Origin: Oscillospiraceae bacterium
GTDB taxonomy: Bacteria > Bacillota_A > Clostridia > Oscillospirales > Oscillospiraceae
DNA: 25,238 nucleotides
Assembly (NCBI GenBank): GCA_017936985.1
Contig: JAGBEM010000012.1
Location: 1-25,238 of the forward strand
Reading direction: 5' to 3'
Shown: one piece after another, positions 7,358-20,791 of the stretch
Layout of the letters: each line of letters opens with the position of its first letter
How positions within the stretch are numbered: the stretch's first letter is position 1
The notes under the pieces: model-generated
Told to the model about the DNA's origin: nothing
What the model saw: the letters and a program-made list of their open reading frames with translations, nothing else
Database searches by the model: none
Program-made: the position numbers and the translations under genes

Positions 7358-7890
7358 CCATTTATTTGATTCGGCACGGCAAAACGGAAGCCAACGAAAA
7401 ACACTTGTACTGTGGCAGTACAGACCTACCCTTATCTGAAATAGGCAAGGCAGAGTTGCAAGCGCTTCACTATGATATTAAAAATGTCCGCTTCATTACC
7501 AGCGGTATGAAACGGACAAATGAAACCTTGCGTATTCTGTTTGGTGATGTGCCCTACGTGGAAGATCCTCGTTTCCGGGAGGTTGACTTCGGTATTTTTG
7601 AAATGCGCAGCTATGACGAGCTAAAAGATACCTCCGACTATCAGGCGTGGCTTGCCGGAGACAATAGCGCAAATATACCGCCAAAGGGCGAAAGCGGTGC
7701 GCAGATGAAAGTGCGGGTGTTGGCGGCATTCTCTGAGATTCGGGAAGATACCTGCATCATCACCCACGGCGGTGTAATCGCTGCAATCATGGAACAGCTT
7801 TTCCCGGAAGATAATAAGAACATCTACCAGTGGCAACCAAAACCGGGCTGTGGATATGCTGTAGAACAACGCAATTACAGAATGCTGTAG
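7354..7890 (+). CDS. cobC: Histidine phosphatase family protein, alpha-ribazole phosphatase CobC
   Basis: A 178-residue member of the phosphoglycerate-mutase-like histidine phosphatases. RHGKTEAN at residues 7-14 holds the phosphorylated histidine H8; REVDFGIFE holds the acid; THGG near residue 138 holds the second catalytic histidine. CobC removes phosphate from alpha-ribazole phosphate or from the cobamide phosphate made by CobS. It is the last gene of the operon, overlaps the short CobU-like gene by four bases, and is followed by a perfect hairpin. The assignment as CobC rather than a generic phosphatase rests on context. Confidence 0.88.
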   Translation: MTIYLIRHGKTEANEKHLYCGSTDLPLSEIGKAELQALHYDIKNVRFITSGMKRTNETLRILFGDVPYVEDPRFREVDFGIFEMRSYDELKDTSDYQAWLAGDNSANIPPKGESGAQMKVRVLAAFSEIREDTCIITHGGVIAAIMEQLFPEDNKNIYQWQPKPGCGYAVEQRNYRML

Positions 7891-7925
7891 AAGATAAACC
7901 CAATTAAACAACCGCTAAATCATAA

Positions 7926-7955
7926 AGATCCCCAGCCAATTTCGGCTGGGGATCT
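7926..7955 (+). terminator. Perfect hairpin ending the cobamide operon
   Basis: Twelve-base arms AGATCCCCAGCC and GGCTGGGGATCT enclose a six-base loop, 35 bases after the cobC stop. No long T-run follows on either strand, so it is either a weak intrinsic terminator or an RNA-stabilising hairpin between converging genes. Confidence 0.55.
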
Positions 7956-8004
7956 ATGCATATAAGCAAACACGCATAATCATAGAAGCAGTGAACCAGT
8001 ATTA

Positions 8005-8235
8005 CTATTTGGGATCAAATTTTCCGGACTCTTTGTCGCGTTCCATTCCATCTATATCACGAGCCAATGCTTCGTCTACAGCGCGATTGATAAAGGCGTT
8101 TACGGATTCGCCCAGTTTGGCTGCGTGCTCTTGGATGATGGCTTTTTTGCCCTTGGGAACACGAAAACGAATGTCCTCCACTTTTTCAGTTAGCCACTTA
8201 TCCCGTGCTCTTTTTTGTGCGTCAGTTAGTGCCAT
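8005..8235 (-). CDS. Ribbon-helix-helix DNA-binding protein (antitoxin-like)
   Basis: A 76-residue protein. The start at 8235 is chosen because GGAGGG lies six bases upstream; the longer frame from 8268 would begin before the site. The N-terminus is charged (ALTDAQKRARDKWLTEKVE), then DIRFRVPKGKKAIIQEHAAKLGESVNAFINRAVDEAL forms the strand-helix-helix pattern of the Arc/CopG class. Such proteins are usually antitoxins or small repressors that bind their own promoter. No toxin gene lies next to it on either side. It is divergent from the xis-int operon across a repeat-containing promoter region, so it may regulate integration or excision. Confidence 0.72.
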   Translation of the reverse strand: MALTDAQKRARDKWLTEKVEDIRFRVPKGKKAIIQEHAAKLGESVNAFINRAVDEALARDIDGMERDKESGKFDPK

Positions 8236-8282
8236 AATCATCCCTCCATTCCAAACTGATGGTAACATAGCCGGTTGTTAAT

Positions 8283-8288
8283 TGTCAA
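8283..8288 (-). promoter_or_regulatory. Candidate -35 box (TTGACA) for the RHH gene
   Basis: On the - strand a consensus TTGACA lies 48 bases upstream of the RHH start. The -10 at 17-base spacing (TTACCA) is poor, so the promoter may need help or another -10. A TATAAT at 8323-8328 on the same strand is a second candidate, with TTGCAC 15 bases upstream. Confidence 0.4.
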
Positions 8289-8302
8289 TTGGCAGGTTGC
8301 AC

Positions 8303-8379
8303 ATATATGGACCCAAATACGCATTATACGGGACCGCATATTTGTGCAACATTCCATATTGATATATGGTACCGCATAT
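8303..8379. repeat. Paired direct repeats in the divergent promoter region
   Basis: ATATATGG occurs at 8303-8310 and 8362-8369. GGGACCGCATAT (8330-8341) and GGTACCGCATAT (8368-8379) are 38 bases apart. One copy lies between the candidate -35 and -10 boxes of the leftward promoter and the other lies inside the spacer of the rightward promoter. This is what an operator shared by a divergent repressor would look like. Confidence 0.5.
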
Positions 8380-8387
8380 AGTATAAT
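8359..8387 (+). promoter_or_regulatory. Promoter for the xis-int operon
   Basis: TTGATA and TATAAT are separated by exactly 17 bases, a near-consensus sigma-A promoter. It would produce a leader of about 250 bases before the excisionase start, and the leader contains a palindrome and a terminator-like hairpin. The 408-base stretch 8236-8643 holds only these regulatory elements and no supported gene. Confidence 0.65.
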
Positions 8388-8437
8388 ACAGATAGAAAAT
8401 AAAACAACGGCAGTGCAAGGGAGCGCCAACTCCCATG

Positions 8438-8451
8438 CACCTGCGCAGGTG
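8438..8451. repeat. 14-base perfect palindrome in the xis leader
   Basis: CACCTGCGCAGGTG is self-complementary and lies about 50 bases inside the predicted leader transcript. It could be a protein-binding site or part of leader RNA folding. Confidence 0.45.
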
Positions 8452-8574
8452 AATTCGGCACCTACACAACGGGATTACCCCGCACCGCAGGGATATTATA
8501 TCCTTTTTGTATCTTTTTTGCAAGAGGGAAAGTGTATCTTTGCGAGGTTACTCCCGGCTATCATATTATGATTT

Positions 8575-8617
8575 GCACCGTGTAGAGCTATCAGCCCTGC
8601 ACGGTGTTTTGTTTTCT
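8575..8617 (+). terminator. Terminator-like hairpin (attenuator) just before xis
   Basis: CACCGTG at 8576-8582 pairs with CACGGTG at 8600-8606. The stem continues inward with one wobble and one mismatch to a three-base loop and is followed by a T-rich stretch (TTTTGTTTTCT). The xis ribosome site AGGAGG follows within 30 bases. Placed between promoter and gene, it probably limits integrase operon transcription. Confidence 0.65.
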
Positions 8618-8643
8618 CTATAACAAACTTAGGAGGAAACACT

Positions 8644-8826
8644 ATGGAAAACAAAAGATTTTTGACAGCCAACGATGTGGCGCAGTACATGGGCATTTCG
8701 GTGCCTATGGCCTACAAGATCATTCGTCGATTGAATGATGAACTGGTGGCGGCAGGCTATATCATCGTTTCCGGTCGCATCAGCCGTAGCTATTTTGAAA
8801 AGAAGATCTACGGCGGCATCGCGTAG
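8644..8826 (+). CDS. xis: Excisionase-like helix-turn-helix protein
   Basis: A 60-residue protein with a MerR/excisionase-like winged-helix start: FLTANDVAQYMGISVPMAYKIIRRLNDEL, then VSGRISRSYFEKKIYG. Small proteins of this kind upstream of tyrosine integrases bend the attachment DNA and bias recombination toward excision. AGGAGG lies a few bases before the ATG, and the integrase starts 11 bases after its stop. The function is inferred from size, fold and position. Confidence 0.8.
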   Translation: MENKRFLTANDVAQYMGISVPMAYKIIRRLNDELVAAGYIIVSGRISRSYFEKKIYGGIA

Positions 8827-8837
8827 GAGGTGAGCAT

Positions 8838-9932
8838 ATGCCTGCTTATAAGGAAAAAGACAGAAACACCTGGACCGTTAAAATCAAACATAAAAACTGG
8901 AACGATCAAATCAAGTGGGTTACCAAAAGAGGTTTTGCAACCAAGCGGGAAGCACTGCAGTATGAGCGTGACTTTCTGGCCCGTAAGAGCGGCAATCTGG
9001 ATATGTCTTTTGCAGATTTCGTCCAGGTCTATCGGGAAGAACGGGGAGCCCGGATCAAAGAGAGCACCCTGTCAATGAAAGGCAATATTATTGACACCAA
9101 ACTGATACCTTACTTCGGCAAAAAATGTATGCGTGAAATCACTACAAAAGATATTATGCTTTGGCAAAATGAGCTGCTGACTTACCGCGATCCCAAGGAT
9201 GGCAAGCCCTACTCCAAATCGTACCTGAAAACGATTCATAACCAGTTGAGCGCGATCTTCAACCATGCGGTCCGTTACCACAAGCTTTCGGAAAACCCTG
9301 CCAGAACGGTTGGAAATATGGGCAGCGAAAAAGGTATTGAAATGAAATGCTGGACCCGTGAGGAGTATCTGAAATTCTCGGAATATATGATGGACGATCC
9401 TGTGGGCTACTACTATTTTCAAATGCTCTACTGGTGCGGTCTCCGTGAGGGTGAGGCACTGGCCCTGACCATCGACGATTTTGATTTTGCAAAGAAGACA
9501 GTTTCCATCACAAAGACCTTTCAGCACCTGAAAGGAAAGGATGTAATCACCGAACCCAAGACACCAAAGAGCAACCGAATCGTGGAAATGCCGGCATTCC
9601 TGGTGGAGGAGATACAGTACTACATTGAAAAACTGTATGAGCCGAAACCCGACGACCGATTGTTTCACTTATCCAAGAGCTATCTCTACCGCAAGATGGA
9701 GCAAGGCAGCAAGGAAATGGGCATTCAGCGTATTCGGGTTCACGATTTGCGGCACTCCCACGTATCCTTGCTTATTCATATGGGATATAGTGCCGTGGCG
9801 ATTGCAGAGCGAATGGGCCACGAGTCCATCGATATCACTTACCGGTATGCCCATCTGTTTCCCACTGTCCAACGGCAAATGGCTACTGATCTGAATGCAC
9901 TACAGGAAGGGGGTGCTGCAGATGTCAGCTAA
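8838..9932 (+). CDS. int: Tyrosine recombinase / phage-type integrase
   Basis: A 364-residue integrase. The N-terminal 50 residues (AYKEKDRNTWTVKIKH...GFATKREA) form the arm-type DNA-binding domain seen in Tn916-like integrases, followed by a SAM-like core-binding domain. The catalytic set is complete: R203 (GLREGE), H302 and R305 (HDLRHSH), H328 (MGHES) and nucleophile Y337 (TYRYAHL). It would cut and rejoin DNA at the att sites of this element. GGAGG precedes the ATG. Its stop overlaps the next gene by 11 bases, unlike most integrases, which end an operon. Confidence 0.95.
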   Translation: MPAYKEKDRNTWTVKIKHKNWNDQIKWVTKRGFATKREALQYERDFLARKSGNLDMSFADFVQVYREERGARIKESTLSMKGNIIDTKLIPYFGKKCMREITTKDIMLWQNELLTYRDPKDGKPYSKSYLKTIHNQLSAIFNHAVRYHKLSENPARTVGNMGSEKGIEMKCWTREEYLKFSEYMMDDPVGYYYFQMLYWCGLREGEALALTIDDFDFAKKTVSITKTFQHLKGKDVITEPKTPKSNRIVEMPAFLVEEIQYYIEKLYEPKPDDRLFHLSKSYLYRKMEQGSKEMGIQRIRVHDLRHSHVSLLIHMGYSAVAIAERMGHESIDITYRYAHLFPTVQRQMATDLNALQEGGAADVS

Positions 9933-10236
9933 GGCTCGTGACGGACAGGGACGCTGGCGCAGCAAGACAATCGGCGTCCGTATATCTCCGGAAGAAAATG
10001 CGGAACTGGATGCTTTGGTGGCCTTGTCCGGTATGACAAAGCAGGAGTATTGCATTAACCGTATGCTGCAGCGGGATGTTGTGGTAACCGGAAATCCCCG
10101 TGTCCACAAAGCACTCAAAAGTCAGATGGAACAGCTCTGTCAGGAATTTGAAAGGCTGTGCAATGTAAATGATCTCAGCGCAGAAACAATGCACGTACTT
10201 GAATATCTGGCAAAAGTCTATGAGGGTTTGCAATGA
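9922..10236 (+). CDS. Ribbon-helix-helix protein, MobC/relaxosome-accessory-like
   Basis: A 104-residue protein starting at the ATG at 9922, with AGGAAGGGGGT upstream; the longer frame from 9895 lies fully inside int. SKTIGVRISPEENAELDALVALSGMTKQEYCINRMLQRDVVV is the RHH and following helix of plasmid mobilisation proteins. GNPRVHKALKSQMEQL follows and is characteristic of a family found in clostridial integrative elements. The C-terminus is helical. No relaxase is in the window, so it would act with one encoded elsewhere or serve as a regulator. It overlaps both int and the transglutaminase gene. Confidence 0.65.
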   Translation: MSAKARDGQGRWRSKTIGVRISPEENAELDALVALSGMTKQEYCINRMLQRDVVVTGNPRVHKALKSQMEQLCQEFERLCNVNDLSAETMHVLEYLAKVYEGLQ

Positions 10237-11141
10237 TGACTAAATTATTTTCGCGTACATTGCAGTCAAAATCGGGACTTATTTTCTTCGCTATCTTAGT
10301 GGTGTATAATCTGCTTTTGGGTGCATATCTGAAAGACTTTCTTGTGCTTTCGCCTATGTTGCTCACATTCTATTTGCTCTCTGCAGTACCGCCCTTACTT
10401 TTCGTCATCAGAGTACGGTCTGCACCTATGCGTGCAATCGTGTACATTATTTTGTTTGTTGTTCTTTTAATGAACACCCTTAGCTTTGTTTTATGCCGCA
10501 GACTTCTGCCGATGATGACGCTGATAACCACTGCCGCCGAAATGATGTATCTGGCGATCTTTGATAACAGTTCCGGCAAGGACAACCTGCTGACGAAAAT
10601 ATATGTTTTGGCAGTTTCGGCGCTTATCGTAGTGACGCTGTTTACCTCGTATAATTTCGTCAGCAAACCGGAGACTCCTTATCTTCTTAACGGTGGTACA
10701 ACTCTGTGGGATACGCAGACAGAAGAGCTTGCTGACGAAATTTGCGCAGGCTGTGATACTGATGCAGAAAAGGTACAGGCGATCTATCATTGGATGCTCC
10801 AAAACCTTGAATACGATTATGGCTACAATGCGCTCTTCCAGTATTTCGATGTTCGCAAAACACTTCGCACCCAACAAGGTGTTTGCTTTGACTTTTCCCA
10901 TCTGTTCGCTGCGCTCTGCCGAAGCCAAAACATTCCGTGTTACGCTGTTGACGGAATATCTTATAAAGACAACTCTGTTCAACACACTTGGAACCGTGTG
11001 TACTACGATGGTACATGGTGGAACATGGATGTGACCAATGACATCTCAAGCACGGCTGCCGGCAAAAGTCTTTACGGTTTTCGCAAACTGGATTCAGCTT
11101 TTGTCACCGACGCAGACTTTTTCATAACAAAAATATATTGA
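10233..11141 (+). CDS. Membrane-anchored transglutaminase-like protease-fold protein
   Basis: A 302-residue protein. Residues 15-140 hold about four or five hydrophobic segments. A transglutaminase-like domain then starts near 165 (ELADEICAGCDTDAEKVQAIYHWM). The catalytic triad is present: C218 (QGVCFDFS), H251 (VQHTWNRVY) and D266 (WWNMDVT). Such bacterial proteins are usually peptidases or cross-linkers acting at the cell surface, here tethered with the domain probably outside. The gene overlaps the RHH gene by four bases, so it is expressed with integration functions, which is unusual. The substrate is unknown; modifying the envelope of the host or of a mating partner is one possibility. 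Confidence 0.8.
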   Translation: MMTKLFSRTLQSKSGLIFFAILVVYNLLLGAYLKDFLVLSPMLLTFYLLSAVPPLLFVIRVRSAPMRAIVYIILFVVLLMNTLSFVLCRRLLPMMTLITTAAEMMYLAIFDNSSGKDNLLTKIYVLAVSALIVVTLFTSYNFVSKPETPYLLNGGTTLWDTQTEELADEICAGCDTDAEKVQAIYHWMLQNLEYDYGYNALFQYFDVRKTLRTQQGVCFDFSHLFAALCRSQNIPCYAVDGISYKDNSVQHTWNRVYYDGTWWNMDVTNDISSTAAGKSLYGFRKLDSAFVTDADFFITKIY

Positions 11142-11148
11142 ATTACTC

Positions 11149-11178
11149 TTGACTATTATACTCCTCTGGGAGTATAAT
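11149..11178 (+). promoter_or_regulatory. Promoter with built-in perfect operator for the DUF3990/XRE pair
   Basis: TTGACT (11149-11154) and TATAAT (11173-11178) are 18 bases apart. The spacer and the -10 box together form a perfect inverted repeat at 11155-11178, with ten-base arms ATTATACTCC and GGAGTATAAT around TCTG. Binding there would block RNA polymerase, which fits autoregulation by the XRE protein two genes downstream. Confidence 0.8.
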
Positions 11179-11203
11179 ATGTAACAGAAAGGAGATGATA
11201 CCT

Positions 11204-11881
11204 ATGGTAAGAAAACTTTATCACGGTTCCTGCAGCATTATTGAAAAGCCTGTCTTCGGACAGGGAAAGCGATATAACGACTACGGTCTGGGGTTTTACT
11301 GCACCGACAGTTTGGAGATGGCGAAGGAATGGGGCGTGTCCCACGATAAGGACGGCTATGCAAACTGCTATGAATTGGATTGCGAGGGCCTGCGTATCTT
11401 AGATCTGAACGATCCGCAATACTGCATTCTCCACTGGCTGGCAGTACTGCTGGAAAATCGGGAGTTTGATGTGCCTTCTGCCCTGGCTCTGGAAGCAAAG
11501 GAGTACATTCTGAAGAACTTTGCCGTTGACTATAAAGACTATGACGCTATCATTGGATACCGGGCAGACGACAGCTATTTTTCCTTTGCTCAGGACTTTA
11601 TCAATGGCACTATCTCCTACCGGCAGCTGAACAATGCTATGCACCTGGGCAAGCTGGGTCAGCAGTTCGTGCTGAAGAGCAAAAAGGCATTTGATCGGAT
11701 TCGTTTTATCGGTGCGGAAGTTGCTGAACGGGAAGAATGGTACGCAAAACAGCAGTCCCGAGACCAAAAGGCCCGGCGGCAGTACTTCGATGTAGAACGC
11801 TTTAAGCGCCAGCGTGGGGATCTGTACATTATGCAGATTATGGATGAGGAGATGAAACCAAATGATCCGCGCTTATCATAA
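11204..11881 (+). CDS. DUF3990-type ADP-ribosyltransferase-like protein, probable toxin
   Basis: A 225-residue protein starting at 11204, with AAAGGAG nine bases upstream. It has the ADP-ribosyltransferase-like pattern: LYHGS at residues 5-9 (H7), GLGFYCTDSLEMAKEW at 28-43 (Y32), IIGYRADDSYF near 116-126, and GQQFVLKS at 152-159 in the place of the third catalytic motif. These features match the DUF3990 family, which belongs to the ART-like fold. The C-terminal 45 residues are highly charged. The target is unknown, and whether the third motif keeps a catalytic acid is not clear. Gene order with an XRE protein and a palindromic promoter suggests a toxin-antitoxin system. Confidence 0.75.
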   Translation: MVRKLYHGSCSIIEKPVFGQGKRYNDYGLGFYCTDSLEMAKEWGVSHDKDGYANCYELDCEGLRILDLNDPQYCILHWLAVLLENREFDVPSALALEAKEYILKNFAVDYKDYDAIIGYRADDSYFSFAQDFINGTISYRQLNNAMHLGKLGQQFVLKSKKAFDRIRFIGAEVAEREEWYAKQQSRDQKARRQYFDVERFKRQRGDLYIMQIMDEEMKPNDPRLS

Positions 11882-12506
11882 GGTTTATTTGGAAAAGGCC
11901 CGTAACAATTTGGGTCGCATGCTGGACTTTGCCACCTATGACTTGGGTTATGATCCCTGCACCTTTTTTGATTTGTTTATGAATTCCGGCTTGGCTAAGC
12001 GGTTTGAAAAGGGCGAGTTTAACGTAACCGTTGGAATGTCCGGCGTAGAGCTGGCATACCGGGTTTTGGAGCTGACCAATCATCAGATAGAGGATCCGCA
12101 GCCCAGGTATTCGGCAGACAGAAGCCCGGAATACTGGGCAGGTTGGGCACTAGCTTATTACCAGTGGGAAACCGCTATGTCATTCCTGGATATCCTGGAA
12201 TGCGTTCCCCTTGATGATATCATTCGTATGTACTCGCCTTATCACGAAATGGATATCCGCCAGTTTTGCGACCGGATGAACGAACTGTACCGTGCCGCCA
12301 ATCCGGAGACAAAACTGAAACAGCTTCGTCAGCGGGCGGGCATGAGTCAGAGCGAGCTGGCAGAGCAGTCCGGCGTTCCGGTGCGGACGATCCAGCAATA
12401 CGAGCAGCGGCAAAAGAGCATCAACAAAGCGCAGGCTGAGTATCTGATGATGTTGGCGAATGCACTGCACTGCAAAGCAGAAGATTTAATTGAGCCTGTT
12501 GAATGA
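11862..12506 (+). CDS. XRE-type regulator with an N-terminal partner domain, probable antitoxin
   Basis: A 214-residue protein. The C-terminal helix-turn-helix at about 147-205 (LKQLRQRAGMSQSELAEQSGVPVRTIQQYE) is a clear XRE/Cro domain. The first 140 residues form an unrelated domain (AYHKVYLEKARNNLGRMLDFATYDLG; YWAGWALAYYQWETAMSFLDIL) likely to bind the partner protein. Its start lies 20 bases inside the DUF3990 gene, with GAGGAG upstream, so the two are coupled. The likely role is to neutralise the ART-like protein and repress the palindromic promoter. Toxin and antitoxin roles are inferred. Confidence 0.75.
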   Translation: MIRAYHKVYLEKARNNLGRMLDFATYDLGYDPCTFFDLFMNSGLAKRFEKGEFNVTVGMSGVELAYRVLELTNHQIEDPQPRYSADRSPEYWAGWALAYYQWETAMSFLDILECVPLDDIIRMYSPYHEMDIRQFCDRMNELYRAANPETKLKQLRQRAGMSQSELAEQSGVPVRTIQQYEQRQKSINKAQAEYLMMLANALHCKAEDLIEPVE

Positions 12507-12521
12507 AATAACACGATATGG

Positions 12522-12560
12522 AAATGTGCGTCAGATGATAACATCTGACGCGCATTTTCG
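12522..12560 (+). terminator. Terminator of the DUF3990/XRE operon
   Basis: About 15 base pairs, with one G-U pair, between AATGTGCGTCAGATG and CATCTGACGCGCATT around the loop ATAA, then TTTTC. It begins 16 bases after the XRE stop. Confidence 0.75.
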
Positions 12561-12739
12561 TCACAAAAAGTTTTCATTTCGGAGAGAAAAAAGCCGGGTG
12601 CACCCCTTGACTTTTTGGCAGAAAATTCTTATTACTTAAGTGTAAGGTAAAAATAGCCTTTGGCAGGTTTGGTGGTTTTCTTGCCATGAGCTGCTATGAT
12701 ATTTATCTTATAATTCACTTTTGAAAGGATGTGAATGTG

Positions 12740-13696
12740 ATGATCGTTGAAGCAATCGATAAGCAGACAAACAGGACTGTTAAAATTGAAGAAGCATATT
12801 CCGGTCAACGTCTTGCATGCCCCTACTGCGGTGTGGATGTACACCCTGTATTGGGAGGCGATACGCAGTTCTTCCGTTGCTATGAAGGCGGAAAGCATAC
12901 GGATCGCATCTGCAAGCAATTGGACAGAACGAACAGAGCATATGATCCCAAATTAACAGATATTGAGGAACTGTTTGACAATCTGTTTCACCCGGTACGC
13001 GAAAAGGAAGAACCCTCTTGGGAGTCCGATGAGGACGAGGGCCTCGTTGAGCCTGAAATGGAGGACGAATACCTGTATGGGGATGAATCCGAGTATGGTA
13101 CCGATTCCGATACAGATGAAAGTGATGAAGAGGAGGGCGAAGCTGATTCCGGACCTGTGATCCTTCCCTGCAGAACACTCAGTCAACTCTGGAAAGCCGG
13201 TATTAAGGAAATTAAGTCGTATGAACGTATCGGCTCTCGCTTAAGATCGGATATTTTCCTGTGGTATATGGATTTTGACGGGTTCTTTGCCCGACACGAG
13301 GACTTGGGGAAACGCGTGCTTGCGGTGCGTCCACGGTGGCCTGTCAACAGAGCCAATGCCATTCTGTTTGCGTCGTTTAGCGGTTTTCGAAAAAAGGGCG
13401 AGTCTAAAACCGAGTACAAACAGAAGCAGTTTGTGCTTGTGTTTCAAGATCGGAAGGCGTACAATCAGGCCTGCAAAAAGCTGTTTGTCCGCAATACGGA
13501 AAGCAACGGTATCAGCAGCACTGCTCCCAAGTATGATATGGTGTTAGTGGCCGGTGACTGGGCGGAGCTGGATGAAGAGGAATATGCAGCATTTGCTGCG
13601 AAGCCCCCAGAGCATTTTTACGGCGCACAGAGGTCCCTTGTCTATTCCAAGAATCAGATTTATGCGATTCCGGAATATAAAAAAACTAAAAAATAA
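12740..13696 (+). CDS. Unrecognised protein: Zn-binding N-terminus, very acidic linker, unknown C-terminal domain
   Basis: A 318-residue protein of no family I recognise with certainty. The start at 12740 is supported by GAAAGGA at 12723-12729; GTG codons at 12731 and 12737 are alternatives. Residues 1-60 look like a treble-clef or CoiA-like metal site: CPYC (C27, C30), C47, H53 and C58. Residues 88-138 are almost wholly acidic (EEPSWESDEDEG..., DTDESDEEEGEAD). Residues 140-318 form a basic, mixed domain with LWYMDFDGFFARHEDLG and QKQFVLVFQDRKAYNQACKKLF. The gene is alone between two terminators, with a possible TATAAT at 12710-12715. It could bind nucleic acid, or mimic it through the acidic stretch; neither is shown. 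Confidence 0.6.
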   Translation: MIVEAIDKQTNRTVKIEEAYSGQRLACPYCGVDVHPVLGGDTQFFRCYEGGKHTDRICKQLDRTNRAYDPKLTDIEELFDNLFHPVREKEEPSWESDEDEGLVEPEMEDEYLYGDESEYGTDSDTDESDEEEGEADSGPVILPCRTLSQLWKAGIKEIKSYERIGSRLRSDIFLWYMDFDGFFARHEDLGKRVLAVRPRWPVNRANAILFASFSGFRKKGESKTEYKQKQFVLVFQDRKAYNQACKKLFVRNTESNGISSTAPKYDMVLVAGDWAELDEEEYAAFAAKPPEHFYGAQRSLVYSKNQIYAIPEYKKTKK

Positions 13697-13711
13697 CGGT
13701 CTTAAAACGAA

Positions 13712-13748
13712 GGCAGCCAAGTGATTCGCACTTGGCTGCCGTTTCTTA
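13712..13748. terminator. Bidirectional terminator between converging genes
   Basis: Twelve-base perfect arms GGCAGCCAAGTG and CACTTGGCTGCC enclose ATTCG. GTTTCTT follows on the + strand, and TTCGTTTT follows on the - strand. It serves the gene ending at 13696 and the recombinase-like gene ending at 13746. Confidence 0.8.
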
Positions 13749-15152
13749 TGCTTTGGTATAGACCTTATGATACTGCTGCTGCGTATCCACAAAGCGATCG
13801 TACTCAGTTTCCTTCACATTGTAACGCCGGCAATTTAATTGGATACGCATATTCTGTGGGTGGGAAGAAAGGGAAACTTTAATGTTGTCTGTGGGTTCAT
13901 TTGCGGTAATGTGCATCTCGGTTTCTGCGGATTCTGCCGGTATTTGCACATAGGCGGAATGCTGCAGTTGCAGCCGTTCTCCCACATCGATACGCGCGAT
14001 CTCAGAAAGGTCACTGTTGACCAAAGGCCTGCGATCCATCTTTTGTTTAATGGCAAACAGTTTCTCTTCATTCACAAATTCGTTCCGGGTTTCGTAAGGG
14101 TCATCAATGTCGTGCCCGATCACATACTCAATTTCCGGTTCGTTCAAACCGAGAATGTGTAAATGCGTACCAAAATTACGGCGAAACAGATAGGCTGTAG
14201 GGTCTTTTCGATCCTCAAACGGCAGGCTGTCTCTATCGGATATGGGGTCCTCTTGAAGGTCCTCATTGATGGATGCCATTTGAGAAGCTTTTATTCTAAT
14301 GTTTTGGAACAGGACGCGGGCTGCGTTTGTTAACTCCCGGGCGGAGCATCGGACGTCCCAACGGTCGTTGTTGCACACAATGGGATAATCATCGATGGAT
14401 TTGCCAAGTTGCGACTCGATATACTGACGCCGCTCATCGATCAGCGCGGCAACCTTATCAGGCACCGGGATAATGCGGTCGGCATTCCTGGTCTTTCCGC
14501 CCAGCTTGCCTGCACTGGTATCATAGCCGGTGGTTTTGTAGATCCATATTACCGGGCAGTCAGGATGGGTTTGCATTGGCTTGATGTCGCCGTAATCTAC
14601 CGCGCAGGCTTCCGCATTACGCAGCCCCAGGGAATACATTAACAGCAAGCCCATGTTTTGACCGGATTGCAGAGGATCGGAAAGGAGCGCTTTGGCCACA
14701 GCCTGCTCTTGGGGGATGGTCAGTGACTTGCAAAGCAGCGCCTGATTGGCTTTTACTTCTTCGCTTTCCGTTGTGGCTTCGGGATTTAGGTTGCTTTCCC
14801 AAAGCACATTATCGCATTCGCCGTGTCTGGCGGCTGTTTCCACGACGTAGTAGATCAAACGGCGAAAATCCTGCAGGGTGCTTTCCTTGTAGGGCATATA
14901 CTGTTTGCCCTTTGTATCCTGGCCCCGCCGGATCAAAGTCTGAATCACAGCATCGTAATCTTCCTGGGTATAGGCGCTGATTGGGGTCTCATCGTGATTC
15001 CCAAGCAGCGGGATGATCTGATTGCAGTAACGCAGGTGGTTACTTCTCTGCGTAGAATCTGCCTTCCAATGTTCCTCAAAGTCTTCGTAGTAATCGTGAT
15101 AGATTCCGTAAAAGGTGTGCTCTTCACCAACAAAGCATTTCCACTCTGTCAT
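13746..15152 (-). CDS. Tyrosine-recombinase-like protein with an atypical active site
   Basis: A 468-residue protein starting at 15152, with AAAGGAGG upstream; the ATGA overlap with the upstream gene shows coupling. A core-binding-like region (residues about 20-130) leads into a catalytic-like domain. R near 177 (GLRNAEACAV) is kept, as are a basic strand (GGKTRNADRIIPVP) and R in FRRNFGTHL near 326. The H of HxxR is replaced by Y. GHD near 347 keeps the second histidine. The tyrosine expected about nine residues after it is R (HDIDDPYETRNEF); the only nearby Tyr is at +6. A 120-residue tail follows with no known domain. It resembles one half of multi-recombinase modules such as Tn554 TnpA/TnpB, but is not an obvious member. 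Confidence 0.75.
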   Translation of the reverse strand: MTEWKCFVGEEHTFYGIYHDYYEDFEEHWKADSTQRSNHLRYCNQIIPLLGNHDETPISAYTQEDYDAVIQTLIRRGQDTKGKQYMPYKESTLQDFRRLIYYVVETAARHGECDNVLWESNLNPEATTESEEVKANQALLCKSLTIPQEQAVAKALLSDPLQSGQNMGLLLMYSLGLRNAEACAVDYGDIKPMQTHPDCPVIWIYKTTGYDTSAGKLGGKTRNADRIIPVPDKVAALIDERRQYIESQLGKSIDDYPIVCNNDRWDVRCSARELTNAARVLFQNIRIKASQMASINEDLQEDPISDRDSLPFEDRKDPTAYLFRRNFGTHLHILGLNEPEIEYVIGHDIDDPYETRNEFVNEEKLFAIKQKMDRRPLVNSDLSEIARIDVGERLQLQHSAYVQIPAESAETEMHITANEPTDNIKVSLSSHPQNMRIQLNCRRYNVKETEYDRFVDTQQQYHKVYTKA

Positions 15153-18100
15153 AAACGACCATCCTCCTTTCCTGTGCCATATACGGCAATGCTGCCGGTT
15201 ACGCCGTGATCGCATTCAACCAAAACATCAATATAGCTTCCGGGCAATTCCTTTGTAGGGGATACCGTGATAGAGACGGCGTTATAATGGTTCTTTTTGC
15301 GGTCTGAATGGACGGTGGTGCTGCGGGTGAATGTTGAAGCTTCGGATGTGCTTTGTACAGCATTCTGCACACCGGTTTCGTGGGCATAGCTCCATCGGTT
15401 CAGCTTTTGCACCATCCCGTACTGGACCAGGTCGTTTGTGTAGTCACAGTAATGCTGAGAGAATGTATCCGGAGCCTTGTTGCCCACAACATAGGATAAT
15501 TCTCCCCGGTTAAAGGAGCAGGTGTGGTTTGCCCGGTGCTTAAAATTGCTGTAGAAAATATCACCCTGATACTTGTTCATATCTACAACGATCTCTTTGT
15601 CACCTTCACCGGGCAGGACCAACTCCTGGGTCGGGATGTTGGCTTTTTCAATCAGAGACCGGCAAACCCGGATAGCAGCATCGTACTTGCAGAAGGACGG
15701 CTTGGAAAGTGCTGCAAGGGTCTTTTTGTTATTGGGCATAATGATCGGCAAATATCGCAACTCGGCTTCTGTAAAGCCGCACATCGCCTGCAGATAGGTT
15801 TTTCTGCTATTCAGCATATCTGCCAACAGCGGGGCTACCGGCACTTTTCTGCAGGCAGTGCCATCTGAGTGATAGATTACTGCACCTTCATCCGATAGGA
15901 ACTTATATACCAAAAGGCGGTATGCCTTCAAGCCGGGAATGGCCTCAAAATCATCCCATGTCAGTGCGCAGGCTTCCCTGGTACTCATGCCGGTAAACAG
16001 ATGGATCGGGCCAAGCAGCAAGGTGCTGTCATCCTCAAACAGCAAGGCTTTTCTCGGGCCAAAGTCCGCATCACTTTCTTCACGAACATAAGAAAGGATT
16101 CGAGCCTCTTCCTCAAAGGTGAAGGTTTTCTTCGTGAGCATATTTCGCAAATTGCGCAGCTCTTTGGATGCCCGATTGCTGATTTCCGGTAGAAGTGCAG
16201 GGATGGGATTTGTGTGGATAAAACCGCTTTCCTCCGCAACCCGCATAATGATATTTAACTGCTGCCAGTACTTAACGATGGCAACGCTGTCCTCTGGGAT
16301 GATTGCCTGCATTGCATTGCGGTAATCTTCATCGCTGGCATCCGATGGACAAAGCGCAGACAGTGCGTTTCCACCGGGACAGAACAGGATGTTTCGGGCA
16401 ATTTCGTCACGGTAGTCCCGTCGCGCCAGCAAGCGGCTGCGGCAGCAAAACCAGATAGTTTTCAGAGAGCAATCCACAAGGCGATCACCGTAGTGATCCA
16501 GCATATTCCCCACGATATAGGGGTAAATGGAATCAAGAAAGGGAACGCTCTCCAGCTTGCCAATGACGGATTCCCGGTCTTTACAACGCAGACCTTTTTG
16601 GGTTGCAGGGGAATTCCGCACTTGCCTATCCTTTGTGTTTTCAGGTGTCGATTTTCCTCTGTAATAGGCCTCGCCAACATAAACGCCGTACCTGTCCCGG
16701 TGTACGGTATAGTACAGCGAGATTTCATTGGAGAACTGATAGACAGATGGCCGCTTACGGTGCTTCACCGCGTCCAGGTCGATTTTTGCTTTTTCAAAAT
16801 CCTTTCGGAGCTTGACCAGGGTTGTTGGCTTTTTCAGCTGTTGCTGAGATACATGGATATACTCTTTTTCAACGATAAGATTGGAGGCGCTTTCATCACA
16901 CTGGGTAAAGAAAACGGGAACCGGCGCATTGGGATCGACGCTACGACCTGCGAACAAAAGCATTTTCTTTCTGGGCTGGGTGACAGTAGCATCGGATGCG
17001 ATTGCAATGATCTTACTGGGAAGGAAACCGTGATCCCGTAAGAGCGTACAAATGTTATCCTTAGAAGCAGATATAAAGGTCTGAGGAAGCAATGCAATGA
17101 AATTGGCATTATCCGTGCCGGCAGAAAGCATTGCGCCAATGTTGAATTCTTCCTCTGTGAACGGGGATACGATGGCGATCAGGTCAAATCTTTTTGCATA
17201 GTTGGCAATATCAGAAAAGATGCTGAACTGAAGGTTCTTAAATTCCATTCGATAGGCGGAGGCCACATAGATATTCGGCACAGCAACGCAGCATTTACAT
17301 CCATACTTCCTAGCTTTTTGAGACCAAGCAAGAAGAAAGTCGGGACCCGGATTTACAATCAGGATCTGAGATACATTTCGGGCCAGCACCTCAAACTGCC
17401 GCAGGAAGAAGGAACATTCGAATTTGCCGTCGTATTTGCTTCTGACATTAAAATCAGATCTCTTTCCAAATAGTTTCGGGAAGGGGTAGAGCGCTGCGCG
17501 GATCACATCGCTGGGTCTTTCGTTCTTGATATTATCAACCAGATCAAAGGCTGTTTCGGTAATGCTGATGCCATGTGTAGCATTCTGCTTTCCTTTGATT
17601 GTATACTGGAATTCCAACCAGGGATTAATTGGATCCCCTAGCTGTGTGCGATACTTATTAAATTGGCAGTAGTTCGCAAGGAGCCTAAGACCGGAAACCT
17701 TGTGCTGACGGTAGAACCGAATGGTTTTGGCCAGTTGGGAGCTGACCGTTCCTTTTAGCGCAGGCATAGAAATGTGATACACGGCTTTCCAGCAAGGGAT
17801 GAAATTGTCCTTGGTAAGTCCAAATGAATGATAGAGTTCCTCGCTTTCCTTATAGAAGCTCTCAATCGTGGCATCCTCAATTTCTGCAATTGGTAGCTGA
17901 GACTCTTTTGGGGATCTAAGAATCAGATGAATCACATAGGCTAATTTTTCGTAATTTCCTTTCGGGAATTCGGTCACAAGCTTATCCCAGTCAGCAACCA
18001 GGAAGGGAGCGAAGGTTTCAAAAAACAGCCGGCAATCCTTATCCATACCTGTCAAGACAAGCTCACTGCAAAGAGAGAAAAAAGCAGGACTATCATAGTA

Positions 18101-18307
18101 GTGGTTCTCATCAGGGGATAACAGCTGATACCTGGAAGTCTCCGCAGCAAATTCTGCTGTATGAATTCCGTCTGTATAATCAGACTTTCTGGAGTGCTCT
18201 ATATTGAGCTTTGCCAGAGCGTAACAGCGGGCAATATCCTCGTGACGAAAGATATCTATATTGAGTGCGGTAAACTTTTCTGAGATAGAAGGATAGATAT
18301 TGCTCAT
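15149..18307 (-). CDS. Large protein: methyltransferase-like middle and degenerate tyrosine-recombinase-like C-terminus
   Basis: A 1052-residue protein starting at 18307, with GGAGG nine bases upstream. Residues 1-290 are helical and unrecognised. Residues about 295-455 resemble the Rossmann fold of N6-adenine DNA methyltransferases: a strand ILIVNPGPDF, then FDLIAIVSPF near 377 where NPPF/Y would sit, then FIALLPQTFISASKDNICTLLRDHG and KKMLLFAGR. The catalytic NPPY is lost. Residues about 700-970 resemble a tyrosine recombinase: FTGMSTREACAL near 770 with Ser at the first Arg position, RKVPVAPLL, NFKHRANHTC near 922 with Lys at the second Arg, GN for GH, and a Tyr (HYCDY) near 950 at the nucleophile position. 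It is co-translated with the 468-residue partner. The fold readings are mine and need profile searches. Confidence 0.65.
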   Translation of the reverse strand: MSNIYPSISEKFTALNIDIFRHEDIARCYALAKLNIEHSRKSDYTDGIHTAEFAAETSRYQLLSPDENHYYDSPAFFSLCSELVLTGMDKDCRLFFETFAPFLVADWDKLVTEFPKGNYEKLAYVIHLILRSPKESQLPIAEIEDATIESFYKESEELYHSFGLTKDNFIPCWKAVYHISMPALKGTVSSQLAKTIRFYRQHKVSGLRLLANYCQFNKYRTQLGDPINPWLEFQYTIKGKQNATHGISITETAFDLVDNIKNERPSDVIRAALYPFPKLFGKRSDFNVRSKYDGKFECSFFLRQFEVLARNVSQILIVNPGPDFLLAWSQKARKYGCKCCVAVPNIYVASAYRMEFKNLQFSIFSDIANYAKRFDLIAIVSPFTEEEFNIGAMLSAGTDNANFIALLPQTFISASKDNICTLLRDHGFLPSKIIAIASDATVTQPRKKMLLFAGRSVDPNAPVPVFFTQCDESASNLIVEKEYIHVSQQQLKKPTTLVKLRKDFEKAKIDLDAVKHRKRPSVYQFSNEISLYYTVHRDRYGVYVGEAYYRGKSTPENTKDRQVRNSPATQKGLRCKDRESVIGKLESVPFLDSIYPYIVGNMLDHYGDRLVDCSLKTIWFCCRSRLLARRDYRDEIARNILFCPGGNALSALCPSDASDEDYRNAMQAIIPEDSVAIVKYWQQLNIIMRVAEESGFIHTNPIPALLPEISNRASKELRNLRNMLTKKTFTFEEEARILSYVREESDADFGPRKALLFEDDSTLLLGPIHLFTGMSTREACALTWDDFEAIPGLKAYRLLVYKFLSDEGAVIYHSDGTACRKVPVAPLLADMLNSRKTYLQAMCGFTEAELRYLPIIMPNNKKTLAALSKPSFCKYDAAIRVCRSLIEKANIPTQELVLPGEGDKEIVVDMNKYQGDIFYSNFKHRANHTCSFNRGELSYVVGNKAPDTFSQHYCDYTNDLVQYGMVQKLNRWSYAHETGVQNAVQSTSEASTFTRSTTVHSDRKKNHYNAVSITVSPTKELPGSYIDVLVECDHGVTGSIAVYGTGKEDGRL

Positions 18308-18433
18308 TATAAAACACCTCCACATCTAAAGTAATGAGCTAGGTAATTTGCAGAAAAATTGTATCTCTACCACAATCTTACCACTTAAAATAAATCTTTG
18401 CAAGTATATATGAAAATAATCAAGTGGGAAACT

Positions 18434-18477
18434 GTTGGTCAAAAGTTGGTCAAATTCAAAATGACGGATTTTGAATT
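18434..18477. repeat. Direct and inverted repeats at the island end near guaA
   Basis: GTTGGTCAAA occurs at 18434-18443 and again at 18445-18454, an 11-base period. An inverted repeat follows at once, with ten-base arms AATTCAAAAT (18453-18462) and ATTTTGAATT (18468-18477) around GACGG. This pattern fits integrase arm-binding sites or an operator of the large - strand gene. The 266-base stretch 18308-18573 contains these, the terminator below, and no gene. Confidence 0.6.
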
Positions 18478-18493
18478 GTGTAAAATAAGAATT

Positions 18494-18539
18494 AAAAACA
18501 CCGTATTTTGTGGAATTTACCACAAAATACGGTGTTTTT
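18494..18539. terminator. Very strong bidirectional terminator downstream of guaA
   Basis: Perfect 20-base arms (18494-18513 and 18520-18539) enclose AATTTA. The outer ends are five A and five T, so either strand yields a hairpin with a U-run. It lies 35 bases after the guaA stop and isolates the chromosome from the island. Confidence 0.88.
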
Positions 18540-18554
18540 CTAACTATTTATAGA

Positions 18555-18600
18555 ACCACATAGCCACACAGGGTCATTCCCACTCGATGGTACCGATGGG
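18555..18600. other. Candidate attachment site at the guaA 3' end
   Basis: The last codons and stop of guaA are a known, conserved integration target for genomic islands using tyrosine integrases. Here island-type recombinase genes begin within 300 bases of this end, and composition changes across it. The duplicate core that would prove integration was not found in this window and may lie to the left. Confidence 0.35.
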
Positions 18601-19575
18601 CTTGGGAGTCAGGTCGTACAGCACGCGGTTGATGCCTTCCACTTCGTGGGTGATGCGGTCGGTGATCTTATGCAGCACCGCGTAGGGGATCTCCTCGATG
18701 GTGGCGGTCATAGCATCCTTGGTATTGACGGCGCGGATGATGGCAGGCCAGCCCTCGTAGCGCATCTCATCGCGGACGCCCACGCTCTTGACATCGGGCA
18801 CAGCGATGAAATACTGCCACACATGCTCGGCAAGACCGGCGATGTCAAACTCCTCGCGGAGGATGGCATCCGCCTCGCGCAGCGCGTGCAGACGGTCGCG
18901 GGTGATGGCACCCAAGCAGCGCACGCCCAGACCGGGACCGGGGAACGGCTGACGGTAGACCATACCGTGGGGCAGACCCAGAGCCTCGCCCACCACGCGG
19001 ACCTCGTCCTTATACAGCAGCTTCACCGGCTCCACCAGCTCCATAGCCATCTCCTCGGGCAGACCGCCCACGTTGTGGTGGGACTTGACGGGCTTGCCGC
19101 TTTCGGCAGCCTTGATGCTCTCGAGAATGTCGGGGTAGATGGTACCCTGCGCCAGGAAGGAGATACCGTCCAGCTTGGCGGACTCCTCATCAAAGACCTT
19201 GATGAACTCGGCGCCGATGATCTTGCGCTTGCGCTCGGGATCGGCCACACCTGCCAGCAGATCCAGGAAACGGTCAGTGGCATCCACATAGATCAGGTTG
19301 GCATCCAGCGCCTTGCCGAACACCTCGATGACCTGCTCGCTCTCGCCCTTGCGCATCAGACCGTGGTTCACATGTACGCAGACCAGCTGCTTGCCGATGG
19401 CACGGATCAGCAGCGCTGCCACTACGGAGGAATCCACGCCGCCGCTCAGCGCCAGCAGCACCTTCTTATCGCCCACCTGTGCGCGGACCTGCGCCACCTG
19501 CTCGTCGATGAAAGCGTTGGCCTGCTCCAGTGTGGTAATACGAGCCATAGACTCGGGACGAACATTGCTATCCAT
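18574..19575 (-). CDS. guaA: GMP synthase, ATP pyrophosphatase plus dimerisation domains only (split-type GuaA)
   Basis: A 333-residue protein that converts XMP to GMP using ATP and ammonia. The start at 19575 follows AGAGG by nine bases. The PP-loop LALSGGVDSSV lies near residues 48-58. HVNHGLMRKGE, AQGTIYPD, HHNVGGLP and PFPGPGLGVR follow, ending with the family C-terminus PKPIGTIEWE. The N-terminal glutamine amidotransferase domain of the usual bacterial fused GuaA (about 510 residues) is absent, and the upstream gene ends only 25 bases away, so this is not a recent truncation with a leftover. A separate glutaminase subunit is expected elsewhere. It is probably co-transcribed with the CofE-like gene. 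Confidence 0.93.
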   Translation of the reverse strand: MDSNVRPESMARITTLEQANAFIDEQVAQVRAQVGDKKVLLALSGGVDSSVVAALLIRAIGKQLVCVHVNHGLMRKGESEQVIEVFGKALDANLIYVDATDRFLDLLAGVADPERKRKIIGAEFIKVFDEESAKLDGISFLAQGTIYPDILESIKAAESGKPVKSHHNVGGLPEEMAMELVEPVKLLYKDEVRVVGEALGLPHGMVYRQPFPGPGLGVRCLGAITRDRLHALREADAILREEFDIAGLAEHVWQYFIAVPDVKSVGVRDEMRYEGWPAIIRAVNTKDAMTATIEEIPYAVLHKITDRITHEVEGINRVLYDLTPKPIGTIEWE

Positions 19576-19600
19576 ATTCAATACCTCTGCCTTTCTGCGT

Positions 19601-20791
19601 TTAGTTGGTGTAGTTATCAAAGTAACCCTGAACGAGAACAACGGGTGTGCCCTTGTCGCCGGAACCGCTGGTCAGATCGCACAGAGATCCGATCAAATCG
19701 GTCAACTGACGGGGGGTGGTGCCCTGAGAGGCCATATTTCCCACCAGATTGTCGTTCTTCTCGCGGATGCTCTTGGAGATAGCCTCCCTCAGTGCTTCGC
19801 CGCTGAGATCCTTGAAATCGTTGTCCGCCAGATACTTCAGCTTCAGCTCGTTGGGAGTGCCGATCAGACCGTCGGTAAACGCAGGGGATACCACGGGGTC
19901 AGCCAGCTCCCAAATCTTGCCCTGAGGATCCTTGAATGCGCCGTCGCCGTAGACCATAACCTCCACGTGCTTGCCGGTGGCCTCAAAGACCCTCTTCTGC
20001 ACATCCAGCACCAGATCCTTGCACTCCTGAGGGAACAGCTTGATCCGATCCTCGGTGGACTTATTGGAGCCCAGCAGGCCGTACTTTGCATTAAAGCCAC
20101 TGCCATTGATAGGCGCGGTCAGAATATCATCCAGACTGTACACCTTCTCGGCACCATTGGCCAGCAGAATGCGCTTGGTGCGGGCGCGGGTATGGATGTC
20201 ACAGTTGAGCACATACTTGGTGTAGTCCAGGATCATCTTTGCCTGATTGGCAAAGACCACCTCCACCTCGCAGCCTGCCTCACGGATGATGCTGCTATAG
20301 TACTCCACATAGTCAACACCGGTGAACTCGTGTTTGTTCTCGCCGAACAGCTCACGGTATCTCTCCAGAGAGAGCACGTCGCTGTAGGGGTTGATGCCGG
20401 CATCGTCCAGCTTATCCAGACTGACCAGCTCATTGCCTACCTCATCGCTGGGGTAGCTGAGCATCAGAACGATCTTCTTGGCGCCCATAGCGATACCTTT
20501 CAGGCAGATGGCAAAACGGTTGCGGGACAGAATGGGGAAAATCACGCCCACTGTCTCCTCGCCAAACTTTGCCTTCACGTCTGCTGCGATATCGTTGACG
20601 GAGGCGTAGTTACCCTGCGCTCTTGCCACGATCGACTCGGTAATGCTGATGACATCTCTGTCGCGCAATGCAAAACCTTCAATTTCGGCCGCTTCGATCA
20701 CGCTGGTTGCTACGATGGCAGCCAGATCGTCACCCTCTCTGATAATGGGGCAGCGGATGCCTCGAGAAATTGTACCAACTCTTCTATCCAT
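19601..20791 (-). CDS. CofE / F420-0:L-glutamate ligase family protein of unknown substrate
   Basis: A 396-residue protein starting at 20791 (MDRRVGTISRGIRCPIIREG), with GAAAGGAAATG upstream. Residues 20-60 (DLAAIVATSVIEAAEIEGFALRDRDVISITESIVARAQG) match the F420-0:gamma-glutamyl ligase fold, which adds glutamate to a phosphorylated acceptor using GTP. A central acidic/Asn-rich part (YGDGAFKDPQGKIWELADPVVSPAF) and a DNDF...GS C-terminus are those of a longer clostridial branch. Clostridia generally lack coenzyme F420, so the true acceptor is unknown. It is next to guaA, 25 bases apart on the same strand, suggesting shared expression and perhaps a GTP link. Confidence 0.82.
   Translation of the reverse strand: MDRRVGTISRGIRCPIIREGDDLAAIVATSVIEAAEIEGFALRDRDVISITESIVARAQGNYASVNDIAADVKAKFGEETVGVIFPILSRNRFAICLKGIAMGAKKIVLMLSYPSDEVGNELVSLDKLDDAGINPYSDVLSLERYRELFGENKHEFTGVDYVEYYSSIIREAGCEVEVVFANQAKMILDYTKYVLNCDIHTRARTKRILLANGAEKVYSLDDILTAPINGSGFNAKYGLLGSNKSTEDRIKLFPQECKDLVLDVQKRVFEATGKHVEVMVYGDGAFKDPQGKIWELADPVVSPAFTDGLIGTPNELKLKYLADNDFKDLSGEALREAISKSIREKNDNLVGNMASQGTTPRQLTDLIGSLCDLTSGSGDKGTPVVLVQGYFDNYTN

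Follow-up and report, generated by a model that had tools for sequence, protein, structure and literature searches.

The general view of tyrosine recombinases is that every protomer carries the full set of catalytic residues, and relatives lacking one of these are easily dismissed as inactive. Here we analyze two adjacent genes, encoding a small (468 amino acids, aa) and a large (1052 aa) recombinase-like protein, in which these residues appear divided between the two products. The pair lies on a 25,238-nucleotide stretch of an Oscillospiraceae bacterium genome (assembly GCA_017936985.1, contig JAGBEM010000012.1), hereafter referred to as the window. Kinetoplastid (Leishmania, trypanosome) topoisomerase IB, which shares the chemistry of the superfamily with tyrosine recombinases, offers a point of comparison. 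In that enzyme the core residues are carried by one polypeptide and the DNA-cleaving Tyr by a second, small subunit (PMC2492870), and the subunits must interact for activity (PMC3759442). One protomer of yeast Flp activates the phosphate and its neighbor supplies the Tyr (PMC8371274), and the SSV1 integrase likewise cleaves in trans, as indicated by titles in the reference list of that paper. Among bacterial elements, the GInts carry GinC, which lacks the first Arg, beside GinA and GinB with an RHRHY motif (PMC5385486). IntA and IntB of the strand-biased circularizing elements (SEs) and TnpA and TnpB of Tn554 are each described with an RHRY motif, with only Tfp lacking it (PMC10214605), and in the RIT trios each of the three families shows a possible catalytic motif (PMC3414803).

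The window's pair resembles kinetoplastid topoisomerase IB in having the catalytic pocket and the Tyr on different polypeptides, but its subunits are bacterial paralogs, each recombinase-like and encoded by adjacent genes on a mobile island. Whereas the protomers of Flp are identical, the roles appear fixed in two proteins here. With the GInts the pair shares adjacent recombinase-like genes in an island and the absence of the first Arg from both GinC and the large protein, yet neither member has the RHRHY motif of GinA and GinB; nor does the pair include a complete member, unlike the SEs (IntA, Tfp, IntB, Srap) and Tn554 (TnpA, TnpB, TnpC). Membership in the GInts, which requires three consecutive ginABC genes with the full motif in two of them, was rejected for this two-gene unit, the complete integrase lying on the other strand. 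Membership in Tn554 was likewise rejected, since TnpA and TnpB each carry RHRY according to the legend in PMC10214605 and neither of the present proteins is complete. Tn1549/Tn916-type integrases are the best solved relatives of the small protein, yet they are single-gene enzymes with a complete active site. A search of the open-access literature, with subscription papers and preprints outside its reach, returned no title or abstract opening describing such a bacterial pair. Judging from residue conservation in the two families, we consider it likely that the pair constitutes an obligately heteromeric enzyme for DNA strand breakage and rejoining, of the tyrosine recombinase/type IB topoisomerase superfamily, whose active site is split between paralogous subunits.

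Catalytic residues of the two proteins

As the initial annotation described, the two minus-strand genes are open over their full extents and overlap through an ATGA (Table 1). The small protein, hereafter the core, presents the motifs GLR178NAEAC (Arg I), GGK220TRNADR (Lys), YLFR324RNFG (Arg II) and GH347 (His), with Tyr321 occupying the first His position and R356 standing at His+9, where the nucleophilic Tyr is expected; the pocket with an Arg for its Tyr that had been read from the sequence is thus borne out residue by residue. A protein database search with the core identified 148 relatives, the best 120 of which were listed, and residue counts were made on the 114 sequences of at least 440 aa among the 121 formed by these and the window's own. 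R178, K220 and R324 are each conserved in 113 of the 114 and H347 in 111, with some of the outliers due to P0034, a sequence resembling a chimera of the large and small proteins. Column 356 is Arg throughout (114/114), and no sequence has a Tyr at His+9 or His+10. The catalytic-domain fold of the tyrosine recombinase superfamily is predicted for the core, which matches the phrog_1 integrase profile (E 4e-14) and, below the family cut-off, Pfam Phage_integrase (E 0.0011). Its best solved relative by sequence profile is the Tn1549/Tn916-type integrase 6en0 (E 5.9e-4), which also ranks first in a Foldseek search with the predicted core model (E 9.5e-5). The core thus has the Arg I, Lys, Arg II and His of the superfamily and no nucleophilic Tyr at about His+9 to +10.

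The large protein, hereafter the partner, shows a largely complementary pattern. Counts were made on the 106 sequences of at least 1000 aa among the best 120 listed from 144 relatives. Its motifs read GMS775TREAC, with Ser at Arg I, GN943, with Asn at the His position, and H952-Y953-CD-Y956, in which the candidate nucleophile Y953 lies 10 residues past N943. The initial annotation had claimed Ser, Lys and Asn in place of the two Arg and the His; Ser and Asn stand, whereas alignment with ordinary integrases (IFY919SNF versus ILRHT) puts Y919, rather than the claimed Lys (K923), at Arg II, a position that is non-Arg under either reading. S775, N943, H952 and Y953 are invariant in all 106 sequences, as is Y919, so that the Tyr of HYCDY proposed near residue 950 at the nucleophile spacing is a fixed feature of the family. 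Of the superfamily residues, therefore, Arg I, Arg II and His are missing and the nucleophilic Tyr is present by sequence alignment. The recombinase-like region, for which the predicted model is of low confidence, matches phrog_1 with E 1.3e-4 over residues 631-835, and the large family, searched by sequence against the PDB, produced a single match (E 1.7), which was disregarded.

Compared by BLASTP, the core and partner are homologous to each other across the catalytic region (E 9e-6, a two-sequence comparison with composition correction off). The conservation of their residue pattern in 114 small and 106 large full-length sequences indicates that this pattern is not due to chance.

Division of residues across divergent loci

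The matches listed from a third protein search (A3; best 120 of 164) included no partner less than about 50% identical to its query, and more distant partners were obtained via genome loci instead. A survey of 300 genomes of one family yielded 13 matches in 10 genomes at E <= 1e-15, and an order-level survey of 394 genomes yielded 12 matches in 9 genomes at E <= 1e-13, two of these genomes holding only ordinary integrases; the locus sets of the two surveys overlap. The class-level survey gave matches at E <= 0.001 in 61 of 391 genomes, but only those of G002 (E 7.4e-195) and G328 (E 3.0e-28) were accepted as family members, and the remaining 59 (E 1.4e-11 or worse, many matching over the Arg I half only) were left uncounted. 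All three surveys scored few candidates per genome, so members can be missed. The final set of 19 loci comprises those from the family and order surveys together with L043, a plasmid of Aristaeella lactis and the G1039 locus (G and L numbers designate genomes and loci). The window's clade, which includes L002 and L005, was counted once, leaving uncounted its remnant copy L006, the truncated L122 and L132, cut by a contig end. The ordinary integrases L088 and L089 were excluded. L069 and L085, whose cores are 89% identical, were both counted, and most other loci are very divergent.

Arg I, Lys, Arg II and His are present in all 19 cores, as is the Tyr that replaces the first catalytic His, and none of the cores has a Tyr at His+9. 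The co-occurrence survey suggested by the initial annotation found the two genes side by side at 18 of the 19 loci and in either order, with the partner first at 11 and the core first at 7. All 18 partners retain the nucleophilic Tyr, none has Arg at Arg I (one has Lys) and a single one has the His. This division holds while identity to the window's sequences falls to 18% for cores and 17% for partners. An alignment of 14 cores contains ten invariant columns, the four pocket residues among them, and in an alignment of 12 partner C-terminal regions the Tyr is the sole invariant column. Core and partner pairwise identities are correlated (r 0.86 over 15 loci; 0 of 5000 permutations as high), which is expected of genes inherited together and does not show contact. 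The adjacent A. lactis plasmid genes, 23% (large) and 27% (small) identical to the window's over the aligned parts, exhibit the identical division. So does a pair in G1039 that was noticed through its position behind guaA and not through its motifs: its core has R, K, R and H with Arg at +9, and its partner has Thr at Arg I and the motif QYYCDY.

The ordinary integrases L088 and L089, matched by the same core profile, served as controls and retain the Tyr in IYxH, as does the island's own integrase. Two ordinary integrases placed on the partner profile have Arg I, Arg II and His, and their Tyr falls in the Tyr953 column. The initial annotation had named two findings that would contradict its reading: lone homologs with complete catalytic residues, or a conserved Tyr at the right place in the small protein. 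Among the loci examined, which do not include the 59 weakly matching genomes, no such lone homolog was found. The Tyr is absent from the core's own family at both His+9 and His+10 (0/114), but it does occur at His+10 in one branch, represented by four of the 19 cores.

The domains attached to the recombinase-like regions vary between lineages. The L065 core (8529-11234) includes a gyrase A C-terminal domain (Pfam, E 4.3e-10, whole protein), also matched by NCBIfam gyrA over residues 692-883 (1.5e-15, below the whole-protein cut-off) and by comparison with gyrase A chains (E 1.3e-13), and the L086 core (7791-10364) carries a weaker version of it (3.6e-4, below cut-off, and 1.6e-7). The gyrase A C-terminal domain wraps DNA, and to our knowledge its fusion to a recombinase-like core has no precedent. 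In the window's partner, residues 186-507 match an HsdM-like methyltransferase fold in a fold search with the predicted structure. N6-adenine methyltransferases are defined by a motif IV of the form [DN]PP[FY] and a glycine-rich motif I; this region has neither, reading FDLIAIVSPF and VNPGPDFL, and is, as modeled, a degenerate (pseudo-) HsdM-like methyltransferase. The fold search mainly covered these residues, so that recombinase folds missing from its results are uninformative for the C-terminal part. The gyrase domain and the pseudo-methyltransferase of the window's clade together suggest varied DNA handling around one split catalytic unit.

A proposed composite active site and competing readings

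Because the pocket residues stay in the core and the invariant Tyr in the partner, catalysis would be shared between two subunits. The core would bind DNA and grip the scissile phosphate through R178, K220, R324 and H347, and the partner would donate the nucleophile, Tyr953, in trans. Neither protein would cut alone, cutting being dependent on the complex. We infer that the reaction would proceed through a covalent 3'-phosphotyrosine link and that the complex would serve in the recombination or topology of the mobile element carrying the pair. The composite active site put forward by the initial annotation is well supported by conservation, with pocket and Tyr divided at 19 loci and the genes adjacent at 18, although the division is not fully reciprocal. 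With somewhat more reserve, we think it probable that these loci represent a bacterial class of obligately heteromeric tyrosine recombinases or topoisomerases, in which pocket and nucleophile reside in two paralogous genes kept together in either order, accompanied by lineage-specific DNA-handling domains, and in which cutting would be conditional on complex assembly. If so, the family would show how an active site can split after gene duplication; its two components would confer an inherent control over DNA cutting and might serve as a tool whose two parts are supplied separately. Whether such an assignment of pocket and nucleophile to different subunits can be permanent becomes directly testable.

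Several observations weigh against a split site. Seven of the 18 partners retain Arg at Arg II, and 14 of the 18 have Lys in the column of K802, near the expected catalytic Lys. The consistent losses of the partner are therefore Arg I and His, and the composite-site argument is carried by Arg I, His and Tyr. The four cores with a Tyr at His+10 (L043, L069, L070 and L085) might be complete in cis, since this is the spacing of the ordinary integrases L088 and L089. The L064 core, the exception to adjacency, contains a stop and no partner was found at its locus; a stop likewise interrupts the L085 core, and at both L085 and L067 the partner is split into two frames. The placement of Tyr953 rests on sequence alignment, because the model of the recombinase-like region is poor, with a predicted local distance difference test score (pLDDT) under 50 over residues 903-1052. 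Moreover, the island encodes an integrase of its own and can dispense with a second recombinase for its integration.

Both proteins could instead be catalytically dead and form a DNA-binding pair, acting as an element repressor, a maintenance factor or an architectural factor. The core's structural matches include phage phi3T SroF, titled a repressor in its entry, and both Tfp of the SEs and GinC of the GInts are described as recombinase folds without catalytic residues, Tfp being suggested to bind DNA without processing it. Loss of catalysis should, however, relax the catalytic residues, and in this family they are precisely what persists, in every core and every partner down to the lowest identities. 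Given that the pocket residues are among the core's few invariant ones, the DNA-binding system that the initial annotation offered as its alternative fits less well, and we regard it as quite unlikely. Still harder to sustain is an active core that cuts alone through a shifted Tyr, at column 359 or His+10, under regulation by the partner. A Tyr does stand at column 359 in 8 of the 19 cores and at His+10 in four, and such activity is possible in one branch. Yet column 359 is mostly Phe among the 114 small sequences (Phe 93, Tyr 17, His 2, Ile 2) and is Phe, Leu or Lys at 11 of the 19 loci, eight cores have no Tyr at all within the 15 residues past the His, and such a reading would not explain why only the Tyr column is invariant among the partners. 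We thus consider a core acting alone highly improbable as a general account.

A split active site is also compatible with a function in defense, in which the pair would nick or trap foreign phage or plasmid DNA. The window's neighboring genes resemble defense or toxin cargo (a DUF3990 gene matches the PADLOC candidate PDC-M42A, E 4.1e-41), the partner bears the HsdM-like fold, and the A. lactis plasmid pair lies behind a cluster of kinase, phosphatase and AAA genes. The window's pair itself, however, has no PADLOC match, and ten proteins of other pairs compared with PADLOC gave one marginal match (E 0.0096), leaving a defensive role conceivable but doubtful.

The island and its guaA insertion site

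The island that holds the pair spans up to ~10.6 kb, as the homology to a relative's near-empty guaA-cobC site is interrupted over this interval (Table 1). The complete integrase of the island lies on the opposite strand, 3.8 kb from the pair. The pair travels in integrative elements, and the integration of this island is probably carried out by the separate integrase, not by the pair. The TTTGACCAAC repeats upstream of the pair resemble arm-type integrase sites.

Table 1. Coordinates of the island, the gene pair and associated features in the window.
Feature	Position	Strand	Remarks
Island interval	7963..18568		DNA homology to a relative's near-empty guaA-cobC site ends at 18568 and restarts at 7963; left edge approximate
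Integrase, Tn916/Tn1549 type	8838..9932	+	Tyr at His+9; other end of island
NikA/MobC-like mobilization protein	9895..10236	+	Island gene
Small (core) protein, 468 aa	13746..15152	-	Predicted tyrosine-recombinase fold; pocket residues; Arg356 at nucleophile position
Overlap of large-gene stop and small-gene start	15149..15152	-	ATGA, from sequence
Large (partner) protein, 1052 aa	15149..18307	-	Predicted HsdM/N6-adenine-methyltransferase fold 186-507; recombinase-like ~600-975
Two TTTGACCAAC repeats	18434..18454	-	Lie between guaA and the pair, with starts 11 bases apart
Palindromic terminator-like sequence after guaA	18494..18539	-	Island right end; kept in 6/6 aligned loci
guaA, 355-aa synthetase part	18574..19641	-	Host gene; 3' end borders island

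The large gene lies directly behind guaA in the window as well as in L001-L005, and the junction is conserved in all six aligned loci. Comparison of 19 longer regions downstream of guaA identifies its 3' end as an insertion hot spot: four of them (L121, L124, L125 and L135) contain other integrase and mobilization genes, L127 has an integrase reaching the contig end, L131 (G1039) holds the divergent pair described above, and L122 and L132 carry the incomplete large genes of the window's clade. A very divergent pair is found near guaA in L069 as well, likewise with an integrase. Varied integrase-bearing elements occupy this site across the genus of G005 (L090-L138). The 355-aa guaA product of the window lacks the N-terminal part present in the 513-aa guaA of L069. 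At least 7 of 27 guaA loci, judged by eye, have a short tandem repeat within ~150 bases past the guaA stop, and the guaA-cobC gap of L129/L103 (G1081) contains two inverted partial copies of the guaA 3' end, perhaps old insertion scars.

Matches to the guaA 3' end at the far end of the island amount to only 10-11 bases and were judged to be due to chance, so the attachment sites are not placed to the base. The ends of the pair were considered as transposon ends and rejected, as the exact repeats shared by 18300-18640 and 13500-13760 do not exceed 8 bases. Neither a tRNA nor an Rfam family at gathering score was detected in the window. A phage origin of the pair was rejected on the absence of relatives from the viral_contigs collection (tblastn with profile A1; 299 stretches matched a pattern, none of them related) and from phage records searched with three core queries. 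Plasmid searches identified a single pair-bearing plasmid, that of A. lactis (L013, NZ_CP069422.1), two further queries returning the same record only and another returning none. On this plasmid, genes for protein kinase, phosphatase, FHA, AAA and DUF4011 proteins cluster ahead of the pair, and a 173-aa gene whose product has a helix-turn-helix (HTH)-like start comes after it.

The cargo of the window's island includes, at 11195-12506 (+), the DUF3990 (ADP-ribosyltransferase-like) gene overlapping an XRE-type HTH gene; the two look like a toxin-antitoxin or defense pair and were not found in L005. A further gene at 12731-13696 (+) encodes a 321-aa protein that starts with CPYCG and shows a weak ribosomal L5e/L18 match below cut-off (E 2e-5); it stays beside the pair in both L002 and L005.

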